Of a stretch of 64,000 nucleotides of DNA, positions 4,553-46,100 are shown one piece after another. Under the pieces are notes generated by a model. That model was given only the letters and a program-made list of their open reading frames with translations. It did not search any database and was not told the origin of the DNA. The stretch covers positions 54,149,366-54,213,365 of the forward strand of contig CM037871.1 of assembly GCA_021292105.1 (NCBI GenBank), read 5' to 3'. The DNA is from Anadara kagoshimensis (taxonomy: Eukaryota; Mollusca; Bivalvia; Arcoida; Arcidae). The position numbers and the translations under genes were made by a program. The stretch's first letter is position 1. Each line of letters begins with the position of its first letter.

Positions 4553-4556
<4 letters not shown>

Positions 4557-19900: not shown

Positions 19901-22900
19901 TCTTGAGTTTCACTTACAAACATCAACGTCATGGTGCACCCATTGTAAACGCAACTTAACTGTGTATACAAATTTATACCAATACAGCAGTGTCAGATTT
20001 AGAGAATCTAAAAACCTGTCAAGCATTAAAGCATCGATATAACGAAATAATGCAGAATAGGCAACTTGTCTTGGCCCATCATAAGCTATATCTCGAAAGC
20101 TTTTAGGTAGCTGCTTTATATCTCTAGGTAGCTTTTGGTCAGTACCTACCACATCTTGGTCACTTGGCAGGCCAACCCTCTCTTTAGCACAGTGTTTAAC
20201 CTTCAATAAGTCTGCTCTGTATATACATGTACGTACAATTATGGAATAAAAATTCCGTGACCAACTGCTCTAAAAAAGTCGCCTTGTTTGGTTATATCAC
20301 TTTTGTGCCTTTCTTTTTGTCCGTCATTTGTTCTGAAACATTTTTCTTGACCTACCTGTCCAATTTCCCTGTCTATTTCCTCAATCAATTTTTCTTGACA
20401 TTCTTCATTAATAGCTAATCTATAAACACTGTACAATAAGCCAACAGCAGTGGTGTCAAAACCCTCAATGATGAACATCAACGAATTCGCATATAAATCT
20501 CTGTCGGTAATGCCTAGATGTTTAACAAATAGCAATCGATAAAACGATAAAAACCGTCATCACAGTATTGTTGATAAGTTTGATGCCTTCGTGTTCAGGA
20601 TTGCCTTGGATATATTTGACTTCCCATAGTTTCATGTTCCGTTCACTTATTTTTTTATTAAACACATAGCTGGTTTAGCTAGGTAAACAAGAGATTTTTT
20701 CCTTCCGGAGCAGCCAGCCTCACTCCCCTGGTGAAAGTTTACGTGTTTAACCTAACTTGTCAGTTTTAAAAACTTTTACTTTGCTTCTGGATTGTGATTG
20801 TGATTTGGATTAGTATTTTTGTATATTTTATATGTATAACAACCGTTACATATATATGCAAGGGTTGTTAGTCAGTGATATCTATAAGTCAAAGAACCTT
20901 GAACAACCACTGGTATATAAATAGATGTAACGGGAAATGTTTTGTTTACATTATTAACCATTTTAGAACATTATTCTTTAATATAAAAAAACAGAAAAAG
21001 ACTCATTTTTATTAATCTCAGCTACTTAGCTAGTCGGCACTGACTTACCGCGTTTTATAAATTTCAGCTACTTAGTTAGTCGGGGCTGACTTACCGCGTT
21101 TTATTAATCTCAGCTACTTAGCTAATCGGCACTGACTTACCGCATTTTATAAATCTCAGCTACTTAGCTTGTCGGCACTGACTTATCGCGTTTTATAAAT
21201 TTCAGCTACTTAGTTAGTCGGGGCTGACTTGCCGCGTTTTATTAATCTCAGCTACTTAGCTAGTCGGTGCTGACTTACCGCATTTTATAAATCTCAGCTA
21301 CTTAGCTAGTCGGCACTGACTTATCGCGTTTTATAAATTTCAGCTACTTAGTCGGGGCTGACTAACCGCGTTTTATAAATCTCAGCTACTTAGCTAGTCG
21401 GTGCTGACTTACCACGTTTTATTAATCTCAGCTACTTAGCTAGTCGGCACTGACTTATCGCGTTTTATAAATTTCAGCTACTTAGTCGGGGCTGACTAAC
21501 CGCGTTTTATAAATTTCAGCTACTTAGTTAGTCGGGGCTGACTTACCGCGTTTTATTAATCTCAGCTACTTAGCTAGTCGGTGCTGACTTACCGCGTTTT
21601 ATTAATCTCAGCTACTTAGCTAGTCGGTGCTGACTTACCGCGTTTTATTAAGCTTAGCTACTTAGCTAGTCGGTGCTGACTTACCGCGTTTTATTAATCT
21701 CAGCTACTTAGCTAGTCGGTGCTGACTTACCGCGTTTTATTAATCTCAGCTACTTAGCTAGTCGGTGCTGACTTACCACGTTTTATTAAGCTTAGCTACT
21801 TAGCTAGTCGGTGCTGACTTACCACGTTTTATTAATCTCAGCTACTTAGCTAGTCGGTGCTGACTTACCGCGTTTTATTAATCTCAGCTACTTAGCTAGT
21901 CGGTGCTGACTTACCGCGTTTTATTAATCTCAGCTACTTAGCTAGTCGGTGCTGACTTACCACGTTTTATTAAGCTTAGCTACTTAGCTAGTCGGTGCTG
22001 ACTTACCACGTTTTATAAATCTCAGCTACTTAGCTAATCGGTGCTGACTTACCACGTTCTAAGTAACTTTCGAAGCTGTCGTCACTTGTTTTATTGCCAC
22101 ATTTTGCATTCTTTTCGCTATAGGCGTTTATGAGCAATTGTAAAAAATCACTTCTTTCCTGAAAAAAAATGTTTTTACATTACAAATTCAAAGTTTAAAA
22201 TCACAATATAAAAACAAATATACAAGTCCATGTTCAATTCATAATTCAAACTAAAAATAACAAGAAAACTTGCAAAAGCAATACGATGACCAAAATAAAT
22301 ATATTTTTACGTTACAAATTCAAAGTTTATTTCACAATAGCAGTACATATTCAAATCACTATCTAACCAACAACAAGGTAATTATTTCGAGACTTTGCTG
22401 AAGCAATATGATGACCAAAATAGAAAGAGCAACAATATTCAATTCGGCCATTTTCGTTTTCTTAAAAACTTAAGGTATACTCCCTCATGCAAAGTATTTT
22501 GTGGTAAATTTGGTAAAATATATTTTGGTCCTTTGGGTATCTTTTCAACATCTTGATAACAATTTTTGTTTCATAATTTTGGTCCAAGCACTACTGATAA
22601 GGAATTGTATTCCAAAACGGCCGTCTACTGCTGTAAAATAAACACTGATATAGTATGTAATTTAATCGATTTTTAATTTAAAAACTGAAGGAGGGGATTT
22701 TTAAATAATCCGAACATAATGATATACAAAATTGTATTTTAAAATCGAGATCGTTAAACAAAGGCTTAAAACCACAGACTCGAAGCCAATTTTAAAAAAT
22801 ATACTGGAAAGTCATTCATTTACATGGGAGTTTCCATGGATATTATCACCGACGGAATTACAAGTCAATGATATACATGTGCATGTTAACAATGACAGGT

Positions 22901-25900
22901 ATTCTATCCTCGAATGTATTACCTTAACCAATTGTAACTTCTTCAACCACAAATATTGAAGCCAACGAATTTTGGTAAGAGTTCCTTTAAAAATTTTCTA
23001 CCCCCACCTATTAAATTCTATGTAAAAATTTTGAAAAATTATTTTTCACAAAAATGTTCAAGATTGCTTGATTCCGTCATTTTTAGGCTTTTTAGTCGAA
23101 ATTTACATTTTAGTGGACGGTATAAATGGAACTCTCCTTAATTTTCGGCTGTTATTTTGTCTTCATTATCATCTTACCTGATTGATAGTTTGCCTTTCTT
23201 TAAATACTGTTTTTGTAAGCTCAACAAAATAGTCTATCGCCATTTTAGGTAAGAAGGCAAGTTTGAATTTTCTCATCACGGTCTTGAGTTCCGGAAATAA
23301 AGCTAAAATACATTAAATAAAACACAATATTTTTAGTTTAGATTTACAATAATATTCTGTAGATTAGGCTTGTTGTTACATATGCATTTCATACTTGTGA
23401 TATGTTGAATAAATTTAAGACCTATAATGCCACGTGCTCAATTCGCCAGATTTCAGGTTTCAGCTTTTTAATATAATTTGCTCACCAGAAGTATAAGGAA
23501 AATCTCTTTATTGCATATAGATGCATTCACACAATGTTAAATAACAGAAGTGTTTGACAATACTAAAATTCTAATATCATAAAATCGCAAATGGTTTTGC
23601 GAGCAATCGACCCACAGTAATATTCCTGATATGGCTTTAAGATTTTACTTGTATGAGGCCACTGTTATATAAAATAGTGTTTTCAGTCACTTAATCGGTG
23701 ATAATATTTCATATTAATTCCGTAATAAAAAGTGGATTTACAATGAATTAATACATAAAAATACTAAAAATCGAAAGTGAATTATTTTTTGCGATTTACT
23801 GATGCCCCAGTAGCATTTTCAATTCGTTGTTTCAGTTTACAACTAAACCTACAACCATAACATATACCTGTATATAAAAACAAGCACGTTGTTGAGACAT
23901 GTTTTATACGAGACTTTCACTTTGCTTTGTCTTGTTATATATAAATATTTATGCTTATACAACTTGCTTAGACATTAACACTTTTAATGTAAAAGGTATT
24001 ATTACTTTTTCAATTACAACTGAGTTAAATATACACTCCCCTCCATAAAGTATTATACAAGTTTCAACCTATCAAAACAAACTGAAAATCTTCATAAAAT
24101 TAAATCGTTAAAATCATATTTATGCTTAAGATGAGTGGTTTTCAGCTAATATAGTGTTTTATCTTGGACAATATATTATCCCCATGTTTTAAAATTTCCC
24201 ATCACAATTTCAGAAAATAATAAGAAGATTGATTTTCAAGAAAAACAACTTTATTACATGCATTTAGATCATAAAGTTAAGAAACCACTTTGAAACACGG
24301 GAAAAACTTCAATATTTCAATTGTGTGAATTTAATATGATACTTATATTGTAAACCTATGGCAAATATAAATTTGTAAAGTTATTTATGGATATTTATTT
24401 AGATCATTGGAAAAACCCAAAAATAAAATCAGTGTCAAGTGTATAGCATATGTATATATATGATCAAAGCTGCTTTGGGATTGTGATCTCAGGTTGGAGA
24501 CGGTTGTCACACACGTACCTTGTAAGAACAGACGACCATGACCAGAGACAGTTGTCAACACGTACTTTGTCAAAATAGCACAGGACCAGGAACAGATGTG
24601 AACACGTATCTTGTAATAATAGCACAGGACCAGAGACGGTCGTCAACACGTACCTTGCAATAACAGCACGGGACCGGAGACGGTTGCCGTTGTCATGTAT
24701 CTAGCCATTCGTACTATCTCAATATCCGGGTTATCCTGGGAGTTAACGTCTATACCAAAGGCTGTTCCGCATATAACATCCAGAGCGAATACATGACAGA
24801 TTCTGTTTGGATAAAATAAAGATTGTCAAGTTATTCTTTATGTTTGCATAAAATAAAAATAGTCGAACTCTTCTTACAATTATTCTTAATTGCATTCGGA
24901 TGTTCTCAAGTCCAGATACAAATTACTTTCTTCAAACAGTACAATAATTAGATCGACTGTGAATTTAAATCAATTTAATAAATTAGCGGCAAAGTGTTAT
25001 AAATTAAAAATAAAGCATACAAATCCATGTCAAAATCACAATGCTAAAGAAAGGTAAAAACTTTGAAACTACAAAATTAAGTTGAATACTTCCACCAGGG
25101 AGTGAGGTGGGGTGCTCTGGAACGGTAATCACCTTCTGTTAAGCTAGCTTCACCAGCCACGTTTGAGATATATCAATCAGTATTCATGTATTGATGAATA
25201 TATTTATATTGGTATCTCAAAAGAATTAGCCAAAAGCATTCAAAGATGAAAAGCTTTGGAACTCACTCGGTTAATTGCACATTTATGTCAGTTCCTGGCT
25301 ACTTTATTATATCTTAAGACTGACATTACCCGTAAGGTAAAAACATATTGATATGAACAAGTAGTCCAAATTCAATGCTTTCAAATTTTTCACTTAACCA
25401 CGCACATGTTGCACTGTTTCTATATAAGCGTTGAGTACTTACCATTTTGTTATACTTAAGACGTTATAGAAACTCTCGTCCAAAAATAAAACATCTGTTT
25501 ATTTTTCTAATGTATAAAAATCGACACTGTGTTATATGACAACACCAATGTAGAAGCGTTTTAAACTATTTTGGAACATCCTAATAGAGCAGAAAGGTTT
25601 TATAAGAACCTGGTTACAGCTAACATAATTTGAAGCAGTTTGTAAAATACTAACGTACGCTAGTCACTTCTAGTACCTCATTCATTCTCTTTCACATTTT
25701 TTTCGCACAAACTTGTAAAACGAATTATACTGAAATCTTTAATAGTTTGATATAAGAAAGCTTACTTTTCCAAGTCTACGTGTTTTCCATCAGTGGATAA
25801 CTTCTTTAATCTAGAGATCATTCTTGTTGTACATCGTTCAACAGTAGCAAAAGTCTTGTATCGTTTATGGAAGAAAAACAACAAAACATATTTATTTCCA

Positions 25901-27617
25901 AAACAAAGTTTTTTATATGATACAAACAAGAAAGATAATTAAAAATAGCATTGCTGTGTCACATAAAGACCATTGCCGTGTCACATAAAGACCACACATA
26001 TACAAGCTTGATACATATCGGTACTTTTAAACAGATATGGGCTTTAGTATGCATTTGTATAATAAAAACAAACATATCGATTTATATCCAAATGACAATT
26101 TCAAAAGCAAAGTAAAATTTTTGAAAACTGGGATGGCAAATTAAGTTAAACGCGTGAACTTCCACCAGCGAAGTGAGGCCGGGTGCTCCGAAGGGTAAGC
26201 ACCGCCTGTTTAGCTAGCTACACCCGTCATTTGCGATAGACAAAATTAAGAATGAAAGAAACATGGAACTGTGTATCTTTGAAAGTTTTTGCTTACAATA
26301 TCCTCGAGACAACAATATAAGTATCTTGTTTTACTGTATAAAGTTCCAGTAGCGGAACAAGCTCTACCATACCGTATTAATTGTGAAACAAATAATCATA
26401 AGCAGGACAAGCAGGTGTATTGCTGCTTAATAAGGGAGCCTTTCAGGGATGTCATAATCGACGCATTAACCAAAATTATATACGAAACGGAACTTGAAGA
26501 ATCAGTTTTATCTTACATTTTAAAATCATTATGGGCTATTACGTATACCTAAATTGTAGTTGAACAGATACAGCATAGTTTGCTTCATTGGATGTGTTTA
26601 CCTTGACTTTGTTGGATATCGCCATTGGAGTTGAAATGTACAATATTTGCAAAATCAAAGGGCGAATTTTGATTCATTGATCGTCCAAACCTGGTACAAT
26701 ACCGTTCGCATTACATCTAATTATTATTTCTGTATTCTATTATATTTGTCAGATTTGACTCATATTTATTGTAATTTGAAACCCCTACACATTTTAATCT
26801 TTCATATATTCGCCGGGGGCATAAATTGAAATTTACCTGCTTGAGTTTAGCTGGACTAAAAGAAGGGCTTAAAATATGGCGTAGGAATTTCCAATGGTCA
26901 TCAATTTCAAGTGTCACGGAGCCGCCAAGAATGTCACCCATGTAAATAAGTTCCTATTAAAAATAAAATAATGGAAGTACAGTATAATAGCAAAAAAAAA
27001 GATAATGAGAGAGAAAGAGGGGGGGGGGGGAGGGAGAGGAGAGTTTAAAGCAATTTTGTTTCACCATGGATGGTGATGGTATGTAAGTGTTTTACGCCCA
27101 AATCAAGATTAATTCTCATATCAAATCGAAAACGATGCAAGGAAACAGTGACCTTATTAAAACGTTCAACTCTCGACACTTCCATTAGATTTTTTCGAAC
27201 ATAGGCAGTGAGAGGTGCATGTGATGCTTAAGCCTTGATATTTGCTACTTTTTAAAAATGAAAATTGAATAATAATTAATTGTTTCGGAAAAATGTTTCA
27301 ACGACCAGATACACAGTTGTGAAGATTATATAATTACAAAGTTTATAATCTCCTAATTTCTTGATTAATTGGAATGTTCATCTAGCTGGTAATTATGAAA
27401 TCTTGAAAGTCAACATTATAAAAAAAACAAACATGCTAATCCTTGTCCAAATCACAACCCAAAAGCAAAGTAAAAACTGTCTGGAAACTGTGAAATTAAG
27501 TTAAACACGTAAAATTTTCTCAGGGAAGTGGGACCTGGTGCTCCGGAGAGGTAAGCAAACAATAACAAATAGATTCCGACATTAACTTTATTATTTTTAT
27601 AAAGTTTATTTCCTTCT

Positions 27618-27669
<52 letters not shown>

Positions 27670-30600
27670 GCTATCTTACAGGTCTGTTCGGAAATGATCG
27701 GAACTCTTTGACATAAATTTGTTTAATCATGTCCGGATCAGCTATCAGTATTGACGGGAAATGTCCGATATACGTTCTGAAAGGAAAATAAAATGAACAT
27801 CGTGCAGTTTATTGTGGACAAAACAAATCAAAGTACTGAAAGTACTAAAATTCGCGAAAGATTAGAAAGACAGGGAGTTCAGTGTCTCCATCAATGTAGT
27901 GTCAGGTATATGAAGTTGTCAGGTAACTGAAAGGAGGTTGTTATGTTCACCTTGCATTGCTCCCAACACAACATAGCGGGTTCATGTAGTGTGCAATGTG
28001 CAGACTATGAGCATGGGGCTGTTTTAATATTCACACATTGGACCAATATTAAGGATTCATATAGGAAATAGTTCAATCCGAATAAATGCATGTATGGAAC
28101 CATCAAGGATGGTCAAAGTTACTTCCATCGTCATGGAGACCCTAATATTAAACAAGAGGTCCATGAGCCTTAATGCTCACATGCAGCTGAGTACATATCT
28201 CATGCAGAGGTTCAATGGTCATTGACATTAATTAAAGAGAATGTCCAAATAAATTTTCAGCAGTAAGGGCCAATTATATGTAAGGATTTTTTGCAAATGT
28301 ATTATAACATAACTAGTCATAAGAGTGCTACATATAATATATCTGAAATCTAGCTACAATATATTGTTTATAAACAACTAAAAAGGTAAAGAAAAATTTG
28401 AACCCATGACCTTAATCTAAATATCGCAATGAATATTAGGTCAATACCTACAATTTAGAAGCCTATACAAAAAGTTTATAGTTTTTGAGATAATTAACCA
28501 TGTCAGTATTTGTTTGCATCAGTGACCTTGACTTTTAAACTCATGTCCTTCATTCATATATCAAAATGATCGTTAGGCCAATACCTACGATATTTTAACA
28601 TATTGCCTATACAAAAAGTTTATAGTTTTTAAGACAATTAATCATTTCAGTATTCATTTGCATCTATAACCTTGACCATTAGACCTATGACCTACATTCA
28701 TATATCAAAATGAACATTGTGTAAATGCCTATAACATTCTGATATACATGCCTATAGAGAAAGTTTATCATTTTTGAGATAATTCACCATTTCAGTATTT
28801 GTTTGCATCTATGACCTTGACCTTTGAACCTATGACCTTCGTTCATATATGGAAATGACCGTAAGGCAAATGCCTACAATATTCTAATATACATGCCTAC
28901 ACAAAGAGTTCAAAGTTTTTGAGATAATTAACCATTTCAGTATTCGTTTACATCTATGACCTTGACCTTTGAACTTATGACCTCTATTCATATATCAAAA
29001 TGACCGTTGTGCAAATGCCTACAGTATTCCAATACACATGATGATGATGCCCATACAAAAAGCTTATAGTTTTCAAATATATTGACAAATACATTAATTT
29101 TGCAATTTCCCCCTCAAGTACCTTGCCATTATCTCATTTTGGCCCCTAAAGCTACAATATGTGCAAATCTAAAACTAGGTGCCCATAGTGTTTTACATGA
29201 AATATCTAAGTTATATCTCTTGTAGGTTCAGAGCAGATGATTTTTAAAGATTTTCACAAATTTCCCCTTTATGGGGCCCCAAGGGGACATAATCCTTGCA
29301 TTTGTGCTAATCTGAAAACCCCTTACTTGACCATTACTGTCAAATATCATCCAATTTGGCTCTGTAGTTTTGGAGGAATTGATAAAAAATGTGAAAAGTT
29401 TATACATGACGCACATCGGAGGAAGATAGATGGCAATTGCACATCTGAGCCTTTGGCTCAGGTGAGCTAAAAAGTTTATACAAGACGGATGAAGATAGAT
29501 GACAATTGTTCATCTGAGCCTTTGGCTCAGGTGAGCTAATAAGCTTCTGATATCTTTCATGTCATAATTGAGGATATTTTTAAATAAATTAATAACTTAA
29601 AAAAATTAACTATTATTTTATTATTATTTATATCACCAGAGTTGTGTTTTAAGAATTCGATAATTTTTGGAAGACTTTTTATTCCCGAGACCAGCATAAT
29701 TTTAGTAAATCTTGTAAACAACAATTTTTTCAATCGGGTGGCCGTTAGGATCCCCGCTGACTGGGTTTGACAGGTGACCCCTCTACAAAGGTTCTGTACA
29801 TGATAAAAATGTAGTTGACAGATGACCACTCTACAAAGTGATCGCTATCCCAGATTTCACTCTAATCAATTTATAATTTTTTAAGGATGACTTCACAGAA
29901 TGCTTTGAAAAACGGGAAAAGCAGTATGATAGCACAAAATTCCAAAATTTTTGTCTTAATATGGGGAGACTCCTCACATCAGCAGGGATTGAGCTTAACT
30001 TTTCGATGAGCCATACAATGAACTGTCAAGAGTGATGGTTGATCTGAATATATCAGGCATATACATTTGGATTATTCTATCCCTTGCTTTACTTTTCGAT
30101 ATTCAACATCTGCAATTACATTGACGAATGGTTTTGCAGAAAATGTTGATCTATAGGTACTGCCAATGTCAATGACTGTACAATTTTGGCAGATTTTGAT
30201 TTATTAGCAGGAACTTGTTTTGCATTACTAAAGGCTTGGGCCTGTTTGTGAGATTCAGAAATGTCATGTTTATTTACACTGTCAAGTTTATAACTAGTGC
30301 AACCCTCGGTAAATACAGATTTTTTTCCTGTCGAACTCTACACAATCGGCACACTTCATTCCGTCCTGCGTATCATACAACCAAGGCCTGCCATCTTCCC
30401 ATGGCTTTTTTATATGCTCCGATGCGTTTGGACTTATCATACTCTTGATAGTACTTTCGTTTTTCCGCAGGTCCTTGTTTAGCCTTTGGAGTCGATGCTC
30501 CTAAAAATTTCCACATGGCAGAAAGCCGGAAGTATCATTTTATACATAAATATCAGAAAAGGAAACGAAATGGCACCGTATTTGAATTCCGGTCGGAACA

Positions 30601-33600
30601 CCGGTCCATTTACACTTGTTAACTATATGATACCCATTTTTCAATTTTACTATTATTGTCGCCAGTCAGAAATATAAACAGGAAATCGGTAAACGGATCG
30701 GAATGTCAAATACACCGAACTGAAAATTCTAATCGCCACCTGGCAGCCCTGGGCGACCTGTGTATGATACATTTATCGCCCAGAGCGAAAAACTGGGCGC
30801 CCGTTAATCTCAATCCCTGATCGGGAGGGTTGGCAGGTATGATAAAGCGGAGAATATAGTTGGGGCGGAAAATATTAATATTGGGGCGAAACGTCCATAA
30901 CCCGCATTCAAAATTTGAGTTATCTACCTTTATTTCAACTTTGAACCTACATACGAGAGAGAGTTGATTATCTGTAACGGAAGAATATTCGGGTTGAGAA
31001 ATCTGCATGTAACAGCTAAATTCGAGAATGATCAAGATCATTCGCGAATAATAATATATCACGTGATAAATAGTATGTATAGCCAAACAACATTGACCTG
31101 TCCGCTTGACCTTTCATTTAAACATTTATTATGGACAGGTGGATTAAGTAACAGGGATCACGCGAGTATATTTCGTCTATATGATGTGAACACTAATCAT
31201 GGTAAACACTCTTGCTGCCAAATTAATTTTCAATGCAACATTGGCAGTGCCAAATTGAAGTTCACAATGCCAAATGATATGACGTCAACAATAGAATATG
31301 ACGTCAGACGCGCTTCTAGTCATAAGACACCATTAGTTAATTGAAGATTATAATCTCAATAGTCAACATTTCATATTTTTGTTTACTTTTCAAAAGAATT
31401 CGAGTATCTCTTAGAACGTATAAACCAAGAGTTGTCTATTCCATTGATAGGACATATGTGTCCCTATGACAGGCTGTCGGTAGAGTACACATATGTCCGT
31501 TTGGCAGCAAGAGGGTTAATGTGTATATGTATTAACGACGAATCCCGAAAGCTACCCATGTATCATATACCATTTTTTAAACCATTTTTTTCAATCAGAA
31601 AATACATCCAAAAAAAAATTTATATGACAAAAGGGTATATGACACACGTATTAGGTGGACCCTCCTATATGAATATTACTAATGAAAGGTCAAACGGACA
31701 GGTCATTGTTGTTTGTCTATATACTTTTACTCTTATGTAAAAAAAAGATAATTTTGATCACTTTTTTTCTTTCGTTGTTTTATATATGATTTTCGGATTT
31801 TATTTTCACAATAAAATCACTTGAACAGTGTAATACTGATGGAAATAATAATAAAATAACACAAGAGCGTATATCCTAAGTGATAAAAAGCTATTATATT
31901 TGTGTACTGTTTTTTTTTTTCATTTCGTTTCTCTAAACCATTGAGGTTACGAAGTAAGATGTATATTGTGACCATCGTGGTCATAATTATTTGGAGACGA
32001 GTATACTGCCGCTTGGCCTTGAAATATTTGATTGTTTTGGGCCAGTGAATATTCTATCCATTATATGTTTAAATAAAAAAAATCACCAGAAATCGTCTTA
32101 GACAAATTTTCCCGGATGTTCATCTGTCATGTGCTACTTTTGAATTTTTATGAAATAATACAATTCAAAAGTGTGCTACTTATGAATTGTATTATTTCAT
32201 AAAAATTCAAAAGTAGCACATGACACATCTATAGAAAATATTTGGACATCGGGGGAAATGATGAAAACGTCAGAAGGTTTATGTTCAATACAATTGAGGA
32301 TGAATTACTTACCCAACCACCGGGCCATACTTCTGGTTATGAAATCCCTAAAATAGACCCAAGTACTTACCCAACCACCGGACCATACTTCTGGTTATGA
32401 AATCCCTAAAATAGACCAAAGTACTTACCCAACAACCGGACCATATATATACTTCTGGTTATGAAATCCCTAAAATAGACCAAAGTACTTACCCAACCAC
32501 CGGACCATACTTCTGGTTATGAAATCCCTAAAATAGACCAAAGTACTTACCCAACCACCGGACCATACTTCTGAGTCAACTCTACATCGAGGTTATGAAA
32601 TCCCTAAATCGACAAAAAATAGATTAAGGAATGAATATGTAACATTTCAAAACTTACAAAAACCAAAAAGATTAAAGTACTGAGTATGGACGAGACATAA
32701 CTATTTATGAAAACTGTATTTGCTCATCAGTCATGTAAAGAAATGTTTCATAAATGTTTGTTTAATCGACACCTTATTCTACTTTCTCTATTACCTTATC
32801 GTTCATTAATTCTAGAACTACAGTCGTTTTATATTTTGTTGGCGTTTGTTCACATTGTACACATTGAGTTGAGTAATGGTATTTAACATCCCAGTTAAGA
32901 ATATTTTACTTATATCGAGACGTTGCCAACTATAAGCGAAAGTGTAGAAAAATGCCAGTGCGTTGCGCTGATGGCATTATACAGCAGGTTCTTTATCGTG
33001 CCACGCCTTCCGTGAAACGGAACTTCGTTTATTTTAAGTCCATCCAAAAGATCGTAATGCCGAGTGCTTGGCGATAGAACAGTAATTACCCACATTCAAC
33101 ACGGTCGGTGACTGACCGCAGTGGTTGTGTGTACAATGAAACAAGCAGTGATACATATTTAAATACACATCCATGTCCAAATCACAATCCAGAAGCAAAA
33201 ACTTTAAAACTGACAAGTTACGGAAGGGTAAAATCCCCTTGGTTAGCTAGCTACATGTGACACCCGCCACGTGTGTAATAAAAATTGTGAGAGAAAGGAA
33301 CATGGAGCTATGGGGCGTCAAATATATCCAGGGTTATCCTGGATACAGAGACATCAAACTTATCAACAATACTGTGATAACGGCAATAAAACAAAATCTC
33401 TGTAAAACATGCTGACACTAATTGACAACTTACAAAATCAATACTTAGCGCCATATAACATAGAGAATATAAACATGTGGAACATTTATCGTCAGAAAGG
33501 AAAAAACATTCCTGAAACAGCCATATAGAATATTTAATTTTTACATTGTCAAACTTGCCTTTGTTATCATGTCTGGTAGAATTCCGAGGTACGGTACAGG

Positions 33601-35979
33601 TTTGGGTCCTGGGAATTTTTTCAGTACTCTGGTTTTATATACCGGGTATCTGGAAGTAAATAAATTTACAATTACAGTCAAACTTGCTCAAGGGACACCT
33701 CTATATATAAGGACTACCTGGTTGTAAGGGTCAGTAAATTTTATCTTAATTGCTTACTATTCATATTATTTGGACGTTTATTTAAGCCGGTCACCTGCTC
33801 AAAAGGACCACTTTTACCGTTTCCCTTAGATGGCCTTTATTTAGACTTTTTGATTGTTATCTATCTTCTATTAAAACCTCGGATATAAAATTTACAATAA
33901 AAATATGTTTGTTCACTTGGATGATGTTGTTTTACGTCCAATTCAAGATCTTTTTCTGGTATCGAAACGATCAATTCTCACAAGACTATCCCAATAAAAC
34001 CCTCGACATTCGGCAAGAGACCATACAAACTTTCTTACGCTAGGATCTGCTTCATGTGGGGTTTGAATCTAGACAGTTGGATGCTTTACAGTTCGTAACC
34101 CTAGATTTTAGATCCGAGGGTTCTCAATCATCGAGTCGATATGATTTACTAAAAATTAATTTTATCACTTGTCAGATTAAGACACTATCTTTCAATTAAC
34201 AACAATTAGTAAGTAATGGCAACTCAGAAATAAAGTTGTTTTTATTGTGATTCTGTTTATTATCAACACACGTTGCTGTCTTTTTGTCATTATCTAAGGT
34301 GCCCATTTAAAGTCAGGGTTTTAATAACACAATATTACCATTTATCTTGTCCTGTAAGCATACACTTTGTTCATAATATGTTCTCTTGTTTCAGCTACAT
34401 TCGTCATAGTGCGAGACTTCAGTGTATTTTCCGGTGTTTAAACGAAATTTAAGGAAATTTAAGTGCTGTATGTAAAAATCTCTTTAAAATCTAATACAGA
34501 ATTTGCTTCGGTGCACCCGGTCACATTTCTCTGATGGAAGTTCATGTACTTAACATAATTTGCCAGTTTTTATTTTTAATTTTTTTACTTTGCTTTTTCG
34601 ATATGTGTAATTTGTAATTTAGTATAGTCGTTATAGGACCTTGGCGAGACATTAGACTCCGAGGATTTTTTCCAATCACATAAATATTTTCGTTAAATAA
34701 TTATTTTAAATCTTTGCTAAATAGTCTATACTGCATACAGACCCGTCATGTGCATTGTAATAGTCACATAACTCATACTAGTATTTGGAAGAAGTAATAA
34801 AATTGCCATAACATAATTTATTCGAGATAGAGTACTTAGATGATATATTATCATGTTTACCGTTCCAGTATAAATACAAATAAAAATCTTGACTCAGTAA
34901 ATAACAAAACAAAAAGTTGATAGTGTTAATGTTGATACGTTGGAATGTTTGGTATACTCTTCTGACGGCAATGTCTGAGATCAGTGTTGAGATAAGTACT
35001 GGGGTTTTACGTTTCAGTCAAGAATATTTCACTTATAGCGAGACGTTGCCAGCTATTTTAATTTCCTATGCGAAAGAACCGTGACCTTTATTTCCTAATG
35101 CCGAGTGCTTGGCGAAAAAACAGTCACTACCCACTTTCAAGTTTAGGGTCAGACCCGGTCGGGGTTCGAACCCACGACCGTCCAGTTCCGGATCGAGCAC
35201 TTTATCTATCTATTTAGCTATCACTTTGGTCAACAAAAATATGTGATTTTCAGAAATGAAGTGTTTAATGTTCAAGCCATTCTATTTGTGACACTTAATT
35301 ACTCTTTTATTCCATAGAAAACCAAATAAACTTAAATAAAGATGGATATTTGTCTCCTACCTGTACCTAGTCGCATCCTTGACTGGTGTAGAACATTTCT
35401 GCACAGAGTAAAACGTTATGGGGATTTGACATCTTGAAAAAAAAACAGGCAAATAGCGGATCCTGCTGCGCATATAACGTAAAACGTCACCGAGGACATC
35501 AATTCCGGTGTTAACATCGCCATTTGCGTCATTTAAAATCCACAAAGCGCCAACATTTTTCTTTTTACAGAAATACTTTATTTCAATCTCAGATGGGCAT
35601 ACAGATTTTCAGTAACAACTAAGTACAAATAAATGAACAATATCAAACATTATCCAATGTTATTTGATTTTCTATGGAAATAAAACATAATTCACTGTCA
35701 CAGACGGAATTACTTGAACAGTAAGTATAATGCGCTTTGTATATAACAACACTTTTGCAGTTAAAAAATGAAGTCATTCATTGTGTCCAACTAAATCACA
35801 CAACTTTCAAACATTTCTTATTCAAATATTCCACAATGATTGTATTTCAAAATTTCAATTATATTCAGATAATTTCATTATAAATATTGAAAATATACTT
35901 ACAAAACCAAAAATACCAAAATTGTGATAATAATCCATAACCATATAGGAATAACCGATACACACCCTAACATGTCCAT
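16945..35979 (-). CDS. Cytochrome P450, CYP3-like (clan 3), complete, 14 exons
   Basis: Exons: 35903-35979, 33559-33649, 32551-32603, 27680-27776, 26837-26953, 25766-25854, 24654-24802, 23178-23302, 22053-22158, 20356-20513, 19509-19597, 18940-19077, 18272-18434 and 16945-17031 (stop TAG). All phases agree, giving 1539 nt or 512 aa, the usual size for a microsomal P450. Residues about 1-25 form the membrane anchor, followed by the hinge [15 protein letters not shown]. Helix C has HWKFLR. The I-helix oxygen-activation motif is EGFDTTA (318-324). The K-helix ExxR is EVMR (374-377). The PERF-type motif is FNPERF (426-431). The heme-binding loop is [10 protein letters not shown] with the iron-ligand Cys at 454. 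[11 protein letters not shown] is typical of the CYP3 family. The expected role is NADPH-reductase-dependent monooxygenation at the ER of xenobiotics, steroids or lipids; the substrate is unknown. The intron 2 donor is GC (33557-33558) instead of GT, and the exon 13 donor is a weak GTTGGT. Exons 3, 7 and 9 have tandemly duplicated junctions downstream of them. It is a paralogue of 417-7928. Confidence 0.93.
18005..18225 (+). repeat. Dispersed repeat family A, plus orientation
   Basis: The copy runs from a truncated start through CACGTGAAATCCCACCGG, GAGGTCGGGTGCTTCAG, and AACGTGTTAATCAAAATTG. It lies in P450 intron 13. Further plus-orientation copies or fragments are near 4750-4960, 15120-15210, 17155-17260, 19335-19480, 22205-22280, 25010-25170, 27425-27560, 45345-45575 and 55195-55365. 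Confidence 0.6.
21000..22052 (-). repeat. 46-bp satellite seeded on the P450 exon 9 splice donor (about 23 units)
   Basis: Twenty-three units of about 46 bp (a few of about 39) run head to tail and abut exon 9 (22053-22158). In the transcript sense the unit starts with exon-like AACGTG or AACGCG followed by GTAAGTCAGCACCGACTAGC and ends ATTAATAAAA. The first unit is the genuine donor. By my count about 17 units keep an exact GTAAGT; the others have GATAAGT, GCAAGT or GTTAGT. The array makes up about two thirds of intron 9. Reading from exon 9 into the first intronic unit reaches a TAA within eight codons. Confidence 0.9.
22470..22660 (-). repeat. Dispersed repeat family B, minus orientation
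   Basis: This is the reverse complement of the 11700-11880 type, including GCAAAGTATTTTGTGG, CATAATTTTGGTCCAAGCAC and GGAATTGTATTCC. Located in P450 intron 8. Confidence 0.65.
24500..24653 (-). repeat. Tandem copies of the P450 exon 7 end plus donor
   Basis: In the transcript sense, exon 7 ends CTGTTATTGCAAG followed by GTACGTGTTG. Immediately downstream, about three more 44-48-bp copies of the last ~35 exon bases and the donor region follow, ending TACAAGATACGTG, GACAAAGTACGTG and TACAAGGTACGTG, plus a partial fourth. Two retain an AAGTACGT or AAGGTACGT donor; one has AT in place of GT. No acceptor precedes the copies, so they could act only as alternative downstream donors. Confidence 0.8.
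26065..26275 (+). repeat. Dispersed repeat family A, plus orientation
   Basis: This well-preserved copy passes AACGCGTGAACTTCCACC, GAAGTGAGGCCGGGTGCTCC and TGTTTAGCTAGCTACACCCG and ends at AATGAAAGAAACATGGAAC. Located in P450 intron 5. Confidence 0.65.
27621..27668. repeat. (GT)24 microsatellite next to the P450 exon 4 donor
   Basis: It is an uninterrupted GT run, read as (CA)n in the P450 transcript. It begins about 11 nt downstream of the exon 4 splice donor at 27679. A G-rich/GA-rich run lies at about 27005-27045 in the same intron. Confidence 0.95.
28151..29539 (+). mobile_element. Non-autonomous Helitron/Helentron-like element with core tandem array
   Basis: The 5' end is AACAAGAGGTCCATGAGCC with a subterminal GCTCAC. 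The centre is about four diverged ~145-bp units containing TGACCTTGACC words. The 3' end is a hairpin (CTGAGCC-TTT-GGCTCAG) followed by GTGAGCTAA, giving a terminal CTAA of the CTRR type expected for Helitrons. The 3' terminus is duplicated: a first end is at 29470 and a second at 29539. It has no transposase. It inserted into intron 3 of the P450 gene. The architecture matches HINE/pearl-type molluscan elements as I know them, but the subfamily is inferred. Confidence 0.65.
30130..30516 (-). pseudogene. Decayed hAT-like (KIAA1586/ZNF862-type) transposase N-terminus
   Basis: On the minus strand a frame from the ATG at 30516 begins MWKFLG and is basic. After a frameshift it continues with [14 protein letters not shown], and after another with a [19 protein letters not shown]-like stretch. 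This C-x2-C ... H-x-S arrangement resembles the TTF/zinc-finger start of hAT-derived proteins. Several frame changes and the absence of a long downstream frame show it is dead. It lies in P450 intron 3. Confidence 0.4.
31084..31718. mobile_element. Fold-back MITE, 635 bp
   Basis: The left terminus CAAACAACATTGACCTGTCC with GCTTGACCTTTCATT is matched by an inverted right terminus at about 31680-31718 (AATGAAAGGTCAAACGGACAGGTCA). It is the same family as 5300-5505. The termini contain AGGTCA-type half sites. It lies in P450 intron 3 and has no coding frame of its own. Confidence 0.65.
32125..32225. repeat. Perfect 43-bp inverted repeat with a 15-bp loop
   Basis: The left arm 32125-32167 and the right arm 32183-32225 are exact reverse complements, beginning TGTCATGTGCTACTTTTGAA. 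The structure is a fold-back element or the product of a template switch. It lies in P450 intron 3, just downstream (transcript sense) of the duplicated mini-exons. Confidence 0.9.
32304..32550 (-). repeat. Four tandem mini-exon copies of P450 exon 3, each with acceptor and donor
   Basis: In transcript order after exon 3 (32551-32603, 53 nt) come copies at 32493-32527 (35 nt), 32429-32469 (41 nt), 32371-32405 (35 nt) and 32313-32347 (35 nt). Each has an upstream CTATTTTAG acceptor and a downstream GTAAGT donor. All lack the same 18 nt (six codons) of exon 3. The 41-nt copy has a 6-nt insertion (two codons). Every length, including the parent, leaves remainder 2 on division by three, so any single copy could replace exon 3 without breaking frame, but two in series could not. 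Confidence 0.9.
32865..33115 (-). repeat. SINE copy (family 2)
   Basis: This is the reverse of the 11158-11400 type. It contains CAGCAGGTTCTTTATCGTGC, TTTATTTTAAGTCCATCC and TAATGCCGAGTGCTTGGCG. The tRNA-like head is missing or truncated. Located in P450 intron 2. Confidence 0.6.
33160..33400 (+). repeat. Dispersed repeat family A, reference copy
   Basis: This is one of at least twenty copies or fragments in the window. Diagnostic words in order are ACATCCATGTCCAAATCACA, AGAAGCAAAAACTTTAAAAC, TTAGCTAGCTACATGTGAC, CACGTGTGTAATAAAAATTG, GAAAGGAACATGGAGC and GGATACAGAGACATCAAAC. I see no box A/box B pair and no clear terminal inverted repeats, so the class (SINE or MITE) is undecided. Confidence 0.65.
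33917..34140. repeat. tRNA-SINE-like repeat (family 3)
   Basis: It begins TTGTTTTACGTCCAATTCAA and contains CGACATTCGGCAAGAGACC and a box-B-like GGGTTTGAATCTA. Related fragments lie at about 27070-27195 (TTTTACGCCCAAATCAAG) and 63440-63515. Located in the first intron of the intact P450. Confidence 0.45.
34995..35225 (-). repeat. tRNA-derived SINE (family 2) with clear box B
   Basis: On the minus strand the head contains TAGCTAAATAGA (box A-like) and GTGGGTTCGAACCCCG (box B). The family 2 body follows (GTGGGTAGTGACTG, CGCCAAGCACTCGGCATTAG). It is intronic in the P450 gene. It is not a functional tRNA, since the acceptor stem does not pair. Confidence 0.65.
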
Positions 35980-36150: not shown

Positions 36151-36244
36151 GAAAACAAACGTTGCACTTACATGACTTTTTAACGCAGTTTCCAATTGTT
36201 CCTGTAACCGATAAACGGTGACCGCTAGTATAACTGTAAACATA

Positions 36245-36425
36245 GGTTTTTTAAGATTTCTTCCGAAGGACCCCTTGACTTTCATTACTAAAATGCCGTG
36301 TGCTTGGTGAAAGAACAGTCACTACCTATTTTCAAGTCTTCAGACCCCTGTGGGGGTTCTAGCCTACGACCTCCTACATACGAAGCGAACCCTATACCAA
36401 CTAAACCACCGTAGTCGTCTAAATC
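36245..36425 (-). repeat. SINE copy (family 2), diverged
   Basis: It contains GACTTTCATTACTAAAATGC, CCGTGTGCTTGGTGAAAG and AACAGTCACTACC in reverse orientation, with a degraded box B (GGGGGTTCTAGCC). It lies upstream of the P450 start. Confidence 0.55.
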
Positions 36426-36503
36426 CGTTAAAACTGACCGCATTTTCTTTTTCTTTAATATACAATGTGCATTTAATTAAACAATGGTATTTCTAAACTA
36501 CAG

Positions 36504-36710
36504 TATAGTGCATCAAGTTTGACCTGACTGTTTGACCTCTACTAGTAATTTGAATATTAGACAGAGCTAATAGACTGTGTGATTTGGGAAAGACAACATG
36601 TTTCATTACTATAAACACCCCGTACCAAGTATTACTATAATCTATCCTTACGTATCAACTTTATATAACCCTAAACAACACAGTGGCCACGTCAAACTTG
36701 ATGCACTATA
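36504..36710. mobile_element. 207-bp MITE with perfect 20-bp terminal inverted repeats
   Basis: The left TATAGTGCATCAAGTTTGAC and right GTCAAACTTGATGCACTATA ends are exact inverses. If the outer TA on each side is a target duplication, this is a Tc1/mariner-type MITE. No coding frame. Confidence 0.75.
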
Positions 36711-36769
36711 AAAATGAAAAGCAAATTGGAAACAATACTGAATTCTGAAACTTATATGGGTAGTAAATG

Positions 36770-37110
36770 TCAAAAACAAACATCAATGTCTGAATCATAA
36801 TCCAGAAGAAAAATTCCACCAGGGAAGCGAGGCTGGATGCTCCGGAAGGGTAAGGACCTCCTGTTTAGCTAACTACATCTGCCACGTTTTAATCATAATT
36901 GGAGAAGGGTCTGTCAGCGTACAGGCACGAGGGTACCGCATACACCAGTGTACCGGACAGACACCAGTGTACCAGAAACGGCCATGTCTAAGTAGTATAT
37001 GGATCCGGATAGAGAAAAAGTCGCGGCTGCCGGACACTGTTGCAAAATTGAGAGAAAGAAACATGGAACGACAAATATTTCCAGGTCAATTCTTGACACA
37101 GAGACACCAA
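36770..37110 (+). repeat. Dispersed repeat family A, with an internal insertion
   Basis: Family A words flank a roughly 130-bp insert at about 36905-37045 that contains a short direct repeat (GTACCGGACAGACACCAGTG region). The repeat then resumes with GAGAGAAAGAAACATGGAAC and CTTGACACAGAGACACC. Confidence 0.5.
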
Positions 37111-39370: not shown

Positions 39371-39545
39371 ATGGAGGTATTTGGAAGTAAGGCGACCGAG
39401 GCATTACAATATACGGTATTCGTTTATTTGTGCAAAGTGTTTGGTTTGATGGGATAACATGAACAGGATGCTTTGGAATGTTGCGATATTGTTGTGGAAG
39501 AAGACGATCGAGGGAAATCTGTGCTATTTATTGCAGGACCAAATT
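39371..39545 (+). pseudogene. Crypton-like / DUF3504-type recombinase fragment
   Basis: One frame, ATG at 39371, encodes MEVFGSKATEALQYTVFVYL and then CKVFGLMG. After a single TAA it continues with HEQDALECCDIV and a DRGKSVLFIAG stretch, then stops. The pattern (x-FGLxG...E...L...D-hydrophobic) resembles the DUF3504 region of Crypton-derived proteins (KCTD1/ZMYM-like). No catalytic residues are covered, and the fragment is isolated. Confidence 0.4.
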
Positions 39546-40196
39546 AAACATTTAAAGGTTGAATCTCTCAGTTAGACAGTCAACCCGGCAAGTAATTACA
39601 TACAGGTACAACCGGAAAGTTTGGAACCTCATTTATATAACCTTTGTAAAAGATTGTTTTTTATATACAACATAGAATTTTTTTTCAAATAGCATAATTG
39701 ATAAAAGATTCAATTTAAGTTTTTGTGAACTACAAGTGACAAAACAAATGAAAATATGCATTATAGTATCATTTGACGTAGAAAAAATATTTATGTTTTG
39801 AAACAAATGCTTTGTTCTCAGTGTCTGAAATAACTAGCCGTTTTTTGTGTCTGAAATGTATAAAGGGAGATAATCGTGTCTGTTGTAAATTTACATCAAC
39901 TAGATCTACTAGTAGCGATATGTCACATGTAAGTAATAACTATTAAACTATTCATTGATAAAACATGTCAAAATTTGTTATAGCTAAAAAAAACTGGTGC
40001 ATAGCTATGAACCACTTTTATGGGGGCTCCAAACATTGCAAATATTGACTTGTAATACCGCCATGAAATATGTCGCACAGTAAATATTCAAAGCATGAAC
40101 AATATTCCACAAATATAATGTTGAACCAATATGATTAAATAATATGAAGACGTTTTAAGATGTTTTACTTTCTGTATATTAGTCAATGTGAACACT

Positions 40197-43100
40197 TTAC
40201 GGTGTAAACCTATGTTTGTAACTAGATCCGTCAAATCCTTCTGCATACCATTTATCAAATACTTCATTCTGTGCTACAGTGAACTTGTTCTTCCAATCTC
40301 CAATTATACCTAGTAAATATATAAGTCATCACCTTAACATTAATTAACGTGTAAACCTGTCTCTTACCAGAGATGGGTGAAAAGAATCAGTACAACCTTT
40401 CAAGTCACTGAGGTAACGAATTTTTAGCTTTTCAGCAACTTCTGTAGTAGAGGAAAAACCAGGGTTCTGGCCCACTTCCGGTCGATTTTCCCCGTTACTT
40501 TAATATGGGGAGTCTTGTCCCACTGAAGCCGTCCCACCCCGGTGCGTGGTACGGAGATAGTATAGACAGGTGAAGGGTGTTTATATTTGTAGTTAATCAC
40601 CCATAACAAGTCCTTTCCCTAGTGTGAGGGATGGAGATAGGTTTGCAGGTGCTTTTTAATTAATCATCCATAAATCCATGGGTTTACCTATAGCAGACGG
40701 CAAACTTTAAAACCAGCGGTGCCGTATAGTCAAGTACATTTTATTCAGTGTGTATGTGTGTCCGTTTTAAATAAAGACAAATGCGATCAGTTTTATTTAC
40801 AAATATTTATTTACAAAAGTCTAAACCTTTTTTACATAATCCCCATATACAGCCCTAACAGATAACATAGAGTGCCCAGTACTGGTCGATCTGTCTCTGG
40901 TTTGTACAACAAGTACTGAAGCCCTTAACGTGAGAACCGTCTACTACCTGCACGGAAGTATTCGTTGCGATCTGCATTGACGTACGCTCCTTTCCTTCCA
41001 TACAGGGCCCGAAATATGGCCTTTCCAGGGTAGTTCGCTCTCTAAATAAAATACTTTAAAATAACTCTCCCGGTGTGTCCAGTACTATTTTGACATAAGT
41101 GTCAGTAATAAACATATATTATTCCACTTCCTCGTCTTTGTCATCACCGGTTTCCTCCTCCTCGCCTTCTGTTTCTGTCTCGCTTCCATTTTCTTCATCT
41201 TTTTCCAAAAATGTTTCTAGTTGATGTTTATACTTGCCAACTGCCATGCGTATAGCCTTCAACCAGTCGTACCCTTCTGCATACTGTTGTACTTTCTCCA
41301 TAACTTTTCTATGCAACATGCCATTTTTCAGACGAACGATATACTTGATGATAACGATATAATTGTCTACGAGGGCTTTCAAATCTTCTGACTTTAATTT
41401 CCTTTCAGCCTTTTCTTTAGCCTCCTTTTCAGAAATACCGTTTTCTGTATATTTCCTCATTTTTTCGTCCCACAATGTTTTTGTTTGTCTTTTGGATACA
41501 TCCACTAGATCTTCAAACGCTTCATTTTCTCGGTTTTCTCCCCATTTCATCTTTTTTGAACTTCTCTCAGGCAAATTATCTGCCTTTCTTTTTGTGTTAT
41601 TGGGTGGCGATAGCGTTTTTAAATCAGCGTACTGTTCATGCTGGTAATAATCTGGAGGCTGAAGTGTTTTCAGTTCTGCATATTTCCGTGACGGATAATA
41701 ATCGGGTGGATTTAATGTTCTCAACTCGGCATAACCTTTCTCGGCATCATTTTTTTCTGGACACCAGCGTTTAACATGCCGCTGTAAATCGTGGTGGTCT
41801 GCAAACATAGTACCACAATCGTCACAAGATGCCATGTCACACGTCTGTTCACTTTGATAGTCCTCTGAAGAATGAGATACATCTACACATCTACATCTAT
41901 ACATCTATCAACAGTCCCCTTTATAGGTTCTACTTTGTCATCAGATTTTTCTGCTTTGTCATTGGAACTTTTTTGCCGATCCAGTACGTTACTCTGTAAT
42001 CTATGGGAATCAGGTGTTGTCGGTTTGAGGTCTACCATCATGTAACCATACTGCTTAGATGTCGCTTCTTCAAACTTATCCATAAACACATAACTCTTCC
42101 GCGGGTACATTTGTCTAGCCAAAGTCATAATCTGTTGTTTGTCGATAGGGTTATTAAACAAAATCAGATAATGACAGTTCCTTCTCTGTGTGGGGTCTTT
42201 ATTAAAGTATAAATTCTGGTTGATGGCAATGACGGAAAGGTTTCTATATGGTGACTCCCTTCGGTAAATAAATCGTTGATTCTGGCATCTTTGACTGACA
42301 TGAGGTCATCGAGTACAATCAAATTCCTCACGTTAGGATCTAGAAAGCTGTCCTTGTCCAAATCTAGCGGTATGCCCTGTATAAACTCGACTGCCGGTCG
42401 AACCGATTTTTGGATTTCCTCATATAGCGGTTGCCATCGCCTGTATAGCCATACAATCCTCTGTGGCGGTGGGTAAATCTTTTCTTGGTTTTTCTGTAGT
42501 AAAGTCATGATGAGATACGTTTTACCACATGATGTTGGACCAGAGCATATAGCGGTATATGGATGTAGAAAGGTAAAACTTTGCTGCTGCTGCTGTGGTG
42601 GTGGCTGCTGCTGCTGCTGCGGTGGTGGTGGCTGCTGCTGTGGTGGTGGTGGCTGCTGCTGCTGCTGCTGTTGTGGTGGCTGCTGCTGCTGCTGCGGTGG
42701 TGGTGGCTGCTGCTGCTGCGGCGGCTGCTGCTGCTGTTGTGGTGGCTGCTGCTGCTGTGGTGGTTGCTGCTGTGGTGGTGGCGGCTGCTGCTGCTGTTGC
42801 GAGGAATGAACATTTTTCATGTGACGTTTTAAATCAAACGGCCAGACATAGGATTTAACGCACATAGAACATTGATACCTCATATTGTTCACACGTCTTA
42901 CTTCTTCTGAGCAATCACAACAAATGAAAGAATATTACAAATCTGTTCTTTATATACGTACCAAAATAAGGTACAATCATATCGATTTGTAACCGTATAT
43001 GGGCTATTCTATAAAAGAAAAGGGCTCCTTTTAGTTGAACACATCTATATACACATTGACTTGTAAAAAGAAATAACATAGCTAACAAACTCATACATTA

Positions 43101-46100
43101 TACGGACAGGATAATATGAATCTCTCTTATTGAAAAGAAAGATACTATTTAACAATAAAAGAAAATGTTATATATTCGAAAATTTACGGTAAATAGGCAA
43201 CGCTCGGAAATTTTTAGGGGAATCCCCTTTATTGCACAATCACTATGCAATCATGCAAGTTTAAACTTAACGGAAAGTCATGTATAGACGTGTTTAAAGA
43301 ATGTTCTAGAATAGGTCGCGTGTGAGCATGCGCCGTAACAATGTTTATTTAAGGATTATGTACAAACATTTTAAAAGTTGTAAATAGAAGTAAATGTGTT
43401 TGTCTTTATTTGAAGCACACACACACATACGCACTACTTGACTCTACCGCATCGTATCGGTTTTAAAGTTTGTCGTCTGCTATAGGTAAATCTATGAATT
43501 AAAAAATATAAACAAAATACACGTGTAAACCTATCTCCGTCCCTCACACTAGGGAAAACACTTGTCATGTTATGAATATAAACACCCTTCACCTGCCAAC
43601 CTATCTCCGTCCCACGCACCGGGGTGGGACGGCTTCAGTGGGACAAGACTCCCCATATTAAAGTAACGGGGAAATCGACCGGAAGTGGCCCAGAACCCTT
43701 GGTTTCATAACTACTTTCTGTCAATCTTCAACCGTATTCGGTGATTACCTATCTGCATCTAGACAATTACTGCAGGACCTCGAATAGTAGAGTGCTTGAG
43801 AAGTTGTGGATTCGATCCCCTGCCGGGTCTGACCCAAAACTTGAAAGTGGGTAGTGACTGTTCTTTCGCCAAGCAATCGGTATTACAAAATGAAAGTCAT
43901 GGTTCCTTGGCTTGGATAGGAACTCAAAATAAACAAGGCCAAGGCATGACACGATAAAGAACACTGCTGTATAATGCAATAAGCGCAACAGAAAGGCAAC
44001 GGTTCTGCACCTTCGTCTGTAGCTTGCGACTTCTCGATATAGGTGAAATATTCTGAACTGAAACGTTAACAATCATTACTCAACTCAACAAGCTCATCTA
44101 GGCTACTCGACAACTGAGATCCGACTCCTTTTCGTTAGCTCAGTATTAAACCTTCGACATTTCTACTCTGTAATTCGCAAACTGAGGAGATAAATATAGT
44201 ACCAGATCTTATCATTCTGCATTATTGTTATCACACCTCAATGCACTTGCTTTGGGGATGGTTCTCTTAAATCATGTGCTGGTTTTCTTTAGTTTATAAA
44301 AGTTTTAAGATGTAAGAAAAAAGATGAAACGCACAGACTTATTTATTTTTCTTTGACTTCGGTAATAAAGTTTAAGGTAATAAAAATATTTTTAAAAATA
44401 ATAATAGACGTTCACAGTTGTCCATAATAATGATTTGAATTGGATATCGGATTCAATAATGAATTTTTGTAAACATTTCTACATTACTTTGACCGAACAT
44501 TTTTCTATTACAAACGTACATAGATAAAATAATTTTTTTCCTTTACGGAAGAATATCTCTGTACCATCAACGGACACCTGTTTTGAGAAGTGCGTCATCA
44601 TAATATTTGTTCACCTTTACGGAAGAATATCTCTGTACCATCAACGGACACCTGTTTTGAGAAGTGCGTCATCATAATATTTGTTCACCGTTACGGAAGA
44701 ATATCTCTGTACCATCAACGGACACCTGTTTTGAGAAGTGCGTCATCATAATATGTTTTTACCTTTACGGAAGAAGATCCCTGTACCATCAACGGACACC
44801 TGTTTTGAGAAGTGCGTCATCATAATATTTGTTCACCTTTACGGAAGAATATCTCTGTACCATCAACTGACACCTATTTCGAGAAGTGCGTCATCATAAT
44901 ATGTTTTTACCTTTACGAAAGAAGATCTCTGTACCATCAACGGACACCTGTTTTGTGAAGTCAGTCATCATATCTGCCTTTACTTGTTTTATATTGTTAA
45001 ATCTACATTTCTTGGCGATATCACAAATTAATTCGTCACTGCGAGGGACTTCTAAAAATTCTGCAATCTTTTTAATCTCTCGTACCGCGTCCTAAAATAA
45101 GAAGTAAATATGTGTGTATCATACAAACAACAACAAAATGATAACTAAATGAAAGGTTTTTCTGTTGTTTTTCAAAGAGGAACTGAATATTGGTTGTTTG
45201 CTGCATTAAAAAGTTGCAAAAACAATTTTGTTGAGGAATTTTCGACGAAACTGGTTTTTCTTTTAACGTTCCAAATAACATTTATCATTAAATGTTAAAG
45301 CCATCCAAAATATTAGCATGTTAACTCTGACCTACCAAATCCATGTCCAAAACACAATTTCGAAGCAAAGTTAAAACAAATATACCAATCTATGTCTAAA
45401 ACGCAATCCCGAAGCAAAGTAAAAAACAAAACTACCAACCCATGTCCAAAAGTTAAAAATAGGCCCACCAATCCATGTCCAAATCAAAATCCTAAAGTAA
45501 GAACTTTGAACACTGGCAAATTAAGTTAAACACGTAAATTTCTATCGGGGAAGTGAGGCCGGGTGCTAACATAGTATGTAGTATTTATCTAATGTGTTAA
45601 ACAAATTGACAACGCACATTGTTGTTGTTAATCATACACAACAGTACAGTGTATATATATAGATATATATATCATACTGTACCTCCAGCATATCTTCATA
45701 ATAAATTACTAACATTGGATAATCATGTTCCTTCTTTACCCTCTCCATATCCCGGTGGTACTCTATAAATCCCCCTGTTGGCACTGTAATATATGTGTAA
45801 TTAACGATTTACTTGTTTAAACTCAAGACCTTTCTTTGTAAACTGTAAATTACTACACTACAGATTACGTTAATGTAGGAGATTAACACACACACACACA
45901 CACCAAATAGATGTTAAGCCCCATTTATACGGCGAGAATTGCATTTTTTACTCATATGTAAATTTACTCACATATGCATATTGTGTCGTATGAACAACTT
46001 TGCATATACGCAAATTTTACTCATGTAAGTAAATTTGCACCTAGTAGGGACCAAGTGCAAATTTGCTATAATATTTGAGTTTTTTTTATACTTAGGTATG

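Follow-up and report, generated by a model that had tools for sequence, protein, structure and literature searches.

Tandem repeats that run across exon-intron boundaries have been described in amphioxus as mirages, in the genes Adh3 and TnC, the globins BflGb6 and BflGb9, and PGBD5 (PMC3087553, PMC3902484). In the accounts given there, mirages occur at both 5' and 3' boundaries, have units of 10-72 bp in Adh3 and of 150-160 bp in the globins, are unstable in length and reportedly leave splicing normal. Other described systems include the gain of introns when AGGT is tandemly duplicated in the genome, as in a potato RdRp gene (PMC4974935), and a variable minisatellite with a 27-bp unit in intron 3 of the abalone TSSK1-like gene (PMC6905558). 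Here, tandem arrays spanning four exon ends and their 5' splice sites (i.e. donors) were examined in a cytochrome P450 gene and a sulfotransferase gene of the bivalve Anadara kagoshimensis, within a stretch of 64,000 nt of contig CM037871.1 (assembly GCA_021292105.1), hereafter termed the window. These arrays are of a kind already known from another branch of the animals, namely amphioxus. With a probability of roughly 0.78, they are mirage-type minisatellites that can be seeded anywhere and that are tolerated when they span a donor because the upstream donor still works.

Arrays at four donors of two genes

Tandem arrays were called with Tandem Repeats Finder (TRF) and gene models were rebuilt on the minus strand, giving the following features (window coordinates).

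16945..33649, minus strand: CYP3A-like cytochrome P450 gene; 13 exons found, with 12 donors; first exon not found
32551..32603, minus strand: P450 exon 3, 53 bp, which is the first array copy; donor GTAAGT after 32551
32306..32573, minus strand: 58-bp array, 5 donor-bearing copies counting the exon; unit of acceptor TTTTAG, exon 3 minus 18 bp, and donor
24654..24802, minus strand: P450 exon 7, end duplicated; donor GTACGT
24497..24686, minus strand: 44-47 bp array, 4 copies (44 bp according to TRF); unit of exon 7 end and donor
22053..22158, minus strand: P450 exon 9, last few bases duplicated; donor GTAAGT
21007..22058, minus strand: 46-bp array, 23 copies; unit of final exon 9 bases, donor and intron
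40197..53394, minus strand: sulfotransferase gene of 301 codons in 5 exons, with 4 donors
44911..45091, minus strand: sulfotransferase exon 4, final ~57 bp duplicated; donor GTAAAA
44540..44972, minus strand: 74-bp array, 6 copies counting the exon; tblastn matches to the exon-4 end in all 5 downstream copies
24804..24875, minus strand: 37-bp repeat of 1.9 copies adjoining the exon 7 acceptor (24802); from TRF, used in the scoring of acceptors
390..6933, continuing in a further fetched stretch (L031), minus strand: adjacent P450 paralog, used as a control; same intron layout, array-free donors

Both the TRF calls and the rebuilt models confirmed the arrays that a first-pass annotation had placed at P450 exons 3, 7 and 9 and at sulfotransferase exon 4. 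In each case the donor (32551, 24654, 22053 and 44911, respectively) lies within the first, transcript-5' copy of the array and the remaining copies are intronic. With the exon copies counted, GT is retained at the donor position in 5/5 copies for exon 3, 3/4 for exon 7, 19/23 for exon 9 and 5/6 for the sulfotransferase exon (i.e. 32/38 overall), and decayed donors among the copies read ATAAGT, GCAAGT and GAAAAA. Mean identity of the exon copy to the other copies of its array was 82-88%. The arrays are separate and their units (58, 44-47, 46 and 74 bp) are unrelated, pointing to four separate births, in agreement with the independent events proposed in that annotation. Its description of each unit as the last exonic bases plus the donor was borne out at all four sites but is incomplete for exon 3, where the 58-bp unit additionally holds an AG acceptor (TTTTAG/GGATTTC) and the exon minus 18 bp, and is thus a whole-exon rather than a donor-only unit. 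At the other extreme, only ~6-9 bases of the 46-bp exon 9 unit are exonic, as judged by eye.

Further features were observed within the two genes. P450 exon 2 apparently has a GC donor (GCAAGT, window 33559), and a TG run at 27620-27668 starts 12 bp past the exon-4 donor (27680). The last sulfotransferase intron contains an element (40487-43674) lying between inverted repeats, consisting of one arm pair of 74 nt at 99% identity and three more arm pairs; it carries long minus-strand open reading frames, one of which contains a poly-Q tract as well as a stretch resembling a P-loop, and it looks like a mobile element.

Recurrence in the genome and donor preference

A pattern search was run over the genome (1.115 Gb in 36 contigs) for three exact copies of a motif spaced 25-55 bases apart, a design in which the windows counted overlap within arrays. 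The donor 8-mer AGGTAAGT was compared with its reversed control TGAATGGA, and the donor 9-mer CAGGTAAGT with its control; acceptors were compared only inside the two genes (17 acceptors). Triple windows of AGGTAAGT numbered 775 + 1418 = 2193 as against 515 + 448 = 963 for the reversed motif, and those of CAGGTAAGT 371 + 449 = 820 as against 85 + 118 = 203. Among the AGGTAAGT matches listed, a few very long arrays dominate, a single array supplying 67 of 100 windows. Arrays were counted in 70.8 Mb (C1 and C2 to 18.96 Mb), which is the span of the 100 matches listed. The donor 8-mer formed 8 arrays among these matches (7 if a duplicate pair is counted once), and the reversed motif formed 7 in the identical sequence, two of them GGAT simple sequence (P = 1.0 for the difference). 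In 274,570 bases, single copies of the donor 8-mer formed 11 clusters and those of the control 6; the donor motif being no rarer, its per-site rate of array formation is not raised. On this small count, arrays seem to arise at control sequences just as they do at donor-like ones.

One flank was fetched for all 8 donor-motif arrays and two further stretches were added, and the 5' edge of the array was reached in five cases. Three of these five (L041, L044 and L045) are clear coding exons, with an acceptor, an open frame and a donor, in which the first array copy is the exon end; the units in these cases are 44, 60 and 47-53 bp. L041 encodes a P-loop GTPase exon (Pfam MMR_HSR1, 29.2 bits with a cut-off of 21.9), which we take to be NOA1-like, and L044 a neuroendocrine 7B2/secretogranin V exon (Pfam, 45.4 bits with a cut-off of 25), while no Pfam family was matched by the 31-residue exon of L045. 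With three clear cases in other genes, donor-spanning arrays are not local to the window. The remaining stretches were left out of the count of exon seeds: in the uncertain cases L040 and L046, a possible acceptor is followed by a short open frame; in L042, L043, L047 and L048 the array edge is outside the fetched stretch or degenerate; and no donor motif was found in L049. Donor-like units also occur beside no clear coding exon in a random stretch (L038, array at 7679-7834) and in a flank (L033, array at 109-551).

The two genes of the window contain 16 donors (12 + 4), rather than the approximately 17 on which the first-pass annotation had based its argument, and the 12 donors of the adjacent paralog had been omitted from its denominator. 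A strong nearby repeat was defined by a score of at least 40, and the control consisted of 2000 points placed at random within the spans of the two genes. This score was reached at 4/16 donors as compared to 18.6% of random points (P = 0.35, or P = 0.79 when the paralog's 12 donors were added). Against a background of 5.7%, obtained from six random 10-kb stretches, the 16 donors gave P = 0.011 and the enlarged set of 28 gave P = 0.073. When counted by arrays, 4 of the 15 TRF arrays in the two gene spans carry a donor in their first unit as compared to an expected 0.44 (P ~0.0006), in a post hoc test for which the pattern was chosen after being seen. This first-unit version was substituted for an initial shuffle of whole arrays, which showed no excess (mean of ~2.4 arrays with a donor; four or more in 3690 of 20,000 shuffles) but was not a fair test, as a long array will take in donors by its length. 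No acceptor of the two genes (0/17) scored at least 40; the closest approaches were a score of 39 for the exon 3 acceptor, which falls within its own unit, and one of 30 for the exon 7 acceptor, which adjoins the 37-bp repeat, and the other 15 scored 25 or less. The acceptor comparison suggested in the first-pass annotation, made here for two genes only, thus gave 4/16 donors versus 0/17 acceptors (one-sided Fisher P ~0.04; a small post hoc sample), a contrast that fits tolerance at donors. A strong donor preference, which that annotation had proposed together with a genome-wide check for enrichment, was rejected on the random-point comparison and on the array counts of 8 versus 7; the check, in the form of the 8-mer and its reversal, gave no array-level excess.

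Donors might nevertheless be mutational hot spots, with breaks provoked by R-loops formed during transcription, by a paused polymerase or by nascent RNA bound to U1, and with repair of these breaks giving rise to tandem duplications. Such an origin would account for the array-level excess within the two genes, for arrays at donors and not acceptors there, and for the genome-wide surplus of donor-motif windows; the TG run beginning 12 bp past the donor at 27680 is also in keeping with it. Hot spots are unlikely, however, given near-equal numbers of donor-motif and control arrays in 70.8 Mb, a per-site rate that is no higher for the donor 8-mer, and the lack of arrays at any of the paralog's 12 donors or at the 10 donors of P450 loci L021-L030 (junctions placed by eye), which were fetched as best family matches and not for their arrays.

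Probable first-donor use and the origin of the arrays

The consequences of downstream donor use were examined in the reading frames. A stop codon would fall inside the retained stretch at all 24 positions tested (22 with GT). Exon 3 contributed 4 of these positions, exon 7 contributed 3 and the sulfotransferase 5, while at exon 9 the test covered 12 of 22 downstream copies; the exon 9 stop is located within the first 46 bp, so the remaining copies should be affected too. As every tested downstream donor brings a stop, only the first donor can yield the protein. Proteins of relatives, the best named of which are from Mytilus galloprovincialis and Tegillarca granosa, were then aligned across the junctions. 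P0016 (84% identical) joins exons 7/8 and 9/10 without an insert. Among the five aligned P450 relatives, the exon 3/4 junction is insert-free in 3/3 that cover it (P0015, P0018 and P0020), exon 7/8 in 4/4 (P0015, P0016, P0018 and P0020) and exon 9/10 in 4/5. Similarly, P0001 (85% identical and, like the window protein, of 301 aa) is insert-free at the sulfotransferase exon 4/5 junction. Both P0001 and P0016 come from source contigs of ~1.2 kb and are taken to be transcript assemblies. Retention of regular splicing would fit the frames and most of the relatives' proteins, but not P0020 at exon 9/10.

Selection for multiple donors, which had also been put forward in the first-pass annotation, would have the extra donors buffer or regulate splicing. 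Retention of GT in 32/38 copies could be read in this way. As a source of protein variety, however, extra donors were ruled out by the stops at all 24 tested positions. The copies behave as unselected, since GT is kept in 32/38 and decayed donors of the kind expected of unselected copies are found among the rest, and the donors of the paralog are array-free. Selection of the arrays is accordingly very improbable.

The exon, rather than the array, is the source of the repeated sequence. The ends of paralog exons 3, 7 and 9 align with those of the array-bearing P450 (tblastn) within an identical exon layout, and no TRF array touches any of the paralog's 12 donors, which were placed by eye from tblastn matches (window, 9; L031, 3). 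A 19-bp A/T-rich repeat of 2.5 copies (2976-3021) lies ~12 bp into the intron after paralog exon 7. In the sulfotransferase, the five downstream copies encode the exon-4 end at 86-90% amino-acid identity (tblastn). This identification of the source follows from the conservation of exon sequence in relatives, the paralog being array-free with the same introns, and the copies encoding the exon end. The P450 arrays are probably younger than the P450 gene duplication, the alternative being loss in the paralog, which may itself be a pseudogene as its exon 4 contains a stop codon. An array that came first, with the exon end growing into it later, would suit exon 9, where the exon shares only about 6-9 bases with the unit. 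This order was rejected, and is scarcely credible, because the exon 3, 7 and 9 ends align with the array-free paralog. P0016 likewise aligns with the ends of exons 7 and 9, and P0001 with that of sulfotransferase exon 4. Least credible of all is creation or inflation of the arrays in assembly: array lengths may be wrong in a single assembly, but the copies differ from one another and similar arrays occur at other genes on other contigs.

On the favoured reading, the end of an exon together with its 5' splice site would by chance be included in a local tandem duplication, which unequal exchange or slippage may then expand into the intron. Splicing would keep to the first, upstream donor and leave the extra copies intronic and nearly neutral, as the frames and relatives suggest. 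Arrays of such size would arise at many kinds of sequence in a repeat-rich genome, donors being one place where they survive. Of the mechanisms considered, tolerance of donor-spanning duplications, with the first donor remaining in use, has the best support: the frames, most relatives and the polarity of the arrays show part of it, and splicing and neutrality are the inferred part. The earlier suggestion of slippage tolerated only at donors comes near to this, save that arrays also arise elsewhere. Several observations weigh on the other side. The array-level excess (0.44 expected, 4 observed) is strong at face value, and donor-motif windows exceed the control 2.3-fold for the 8-mer and 4-fold for the 9-mer. 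The genome-wide comparison rests on just 8 versus 7 arrays and does not include acceptors. In P0020, a predicted Tegillarca protein, 8 extra residues sit precisely where exons 9 and 10 join, and it thus lends no support there; it has inserts at other junctions too and may be a faulty gene model. Lastly, the proposed splicing is deduced from frames and relatives.

Other tandem repeats were observed in the window and in the fetched stretches. A 145-bp family extends across several contigs (window 28461-29040, 49396-51332 and 51877-52294; also L033, L036 and L037). A 45-bp array of 4.4 copies (63193-63390, units ending in CTAGCAG) and a 20-bp array of 169 copies (59737-63099) appear by eye to share an intron of a gene on the plus strand; the first exon of this gene, at ~58632, encodes a signal-peptide-like stretch. 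A 65-bp array (about 3640-4160) is common to L009, L011-L013, L015 and L016, beside P450 genes clustered on C18.

Implications and comparison with known systems

A broader proposition is that donor-spanning minisatellites form a common and recurrent class of mutation in this bivalve genome, born preferentially at transcribed 5' splice sites, and that, as a parallel to amphioxus, they provide new exons and introns with ready-made splice signals. In this strong form the proposition is unlikely. If mirages recur in a bivalve genome, copied splice signals would be a wider feature of tandem-repeat-rich animal genomes; this would provide many natural experiments on the choice of the spliceosome among near-identical tandem donors, and the idea of mirages seeding new introns would become testable. 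There is also a practical warning in that gene predictors may take up intronic copies of exon ends. A literature search, made by title and mostly in the open literature, found no title reporting mirages from molluscs or from anywhere beyond amphioxus.

Among the other systems, introner elements are dispersed, near-identical, intron-forming copies, whereas the units of the four window arrays differ among themselves. The abalone TSSK1-like minisatellite is likewise a variable tandem repeat in an intron, but the available account describes no unit spanning an exon boundary (PMC6905558). Intron gain through AGGT (PMC4974935) similarly involves a tandem duplication bearing splice signals; it was rejected for the window, where intron positions and exon layout match those of the array-free paralog and no intron occupies a new position. 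The closest likeness is to the amphioxus mirages as described in the accounts cited above. In both, minisatellite-like copies of an exon-intron boundary and its splice signals accompany an intact exon, and unit sizes overlap (10-160 bp in amphioxus, 44-74 bp here). The four window arrays and those of L041, L044 and L045 have the structure by which a mirage is defined, namely a unit of exon sequence plus splice site with a length of ~10-160 bp. Possible signs of affected 3' boundaries are seen here in the acceptor within the exon 3 unit and in the 37-bp repeat adjoining the acceptor at 24802. The present arrays differ from those of amphioxus in coming from a bivalve, in occurring several to one gene, in lying mostly at donors and in being known from the sequence of one assembly.

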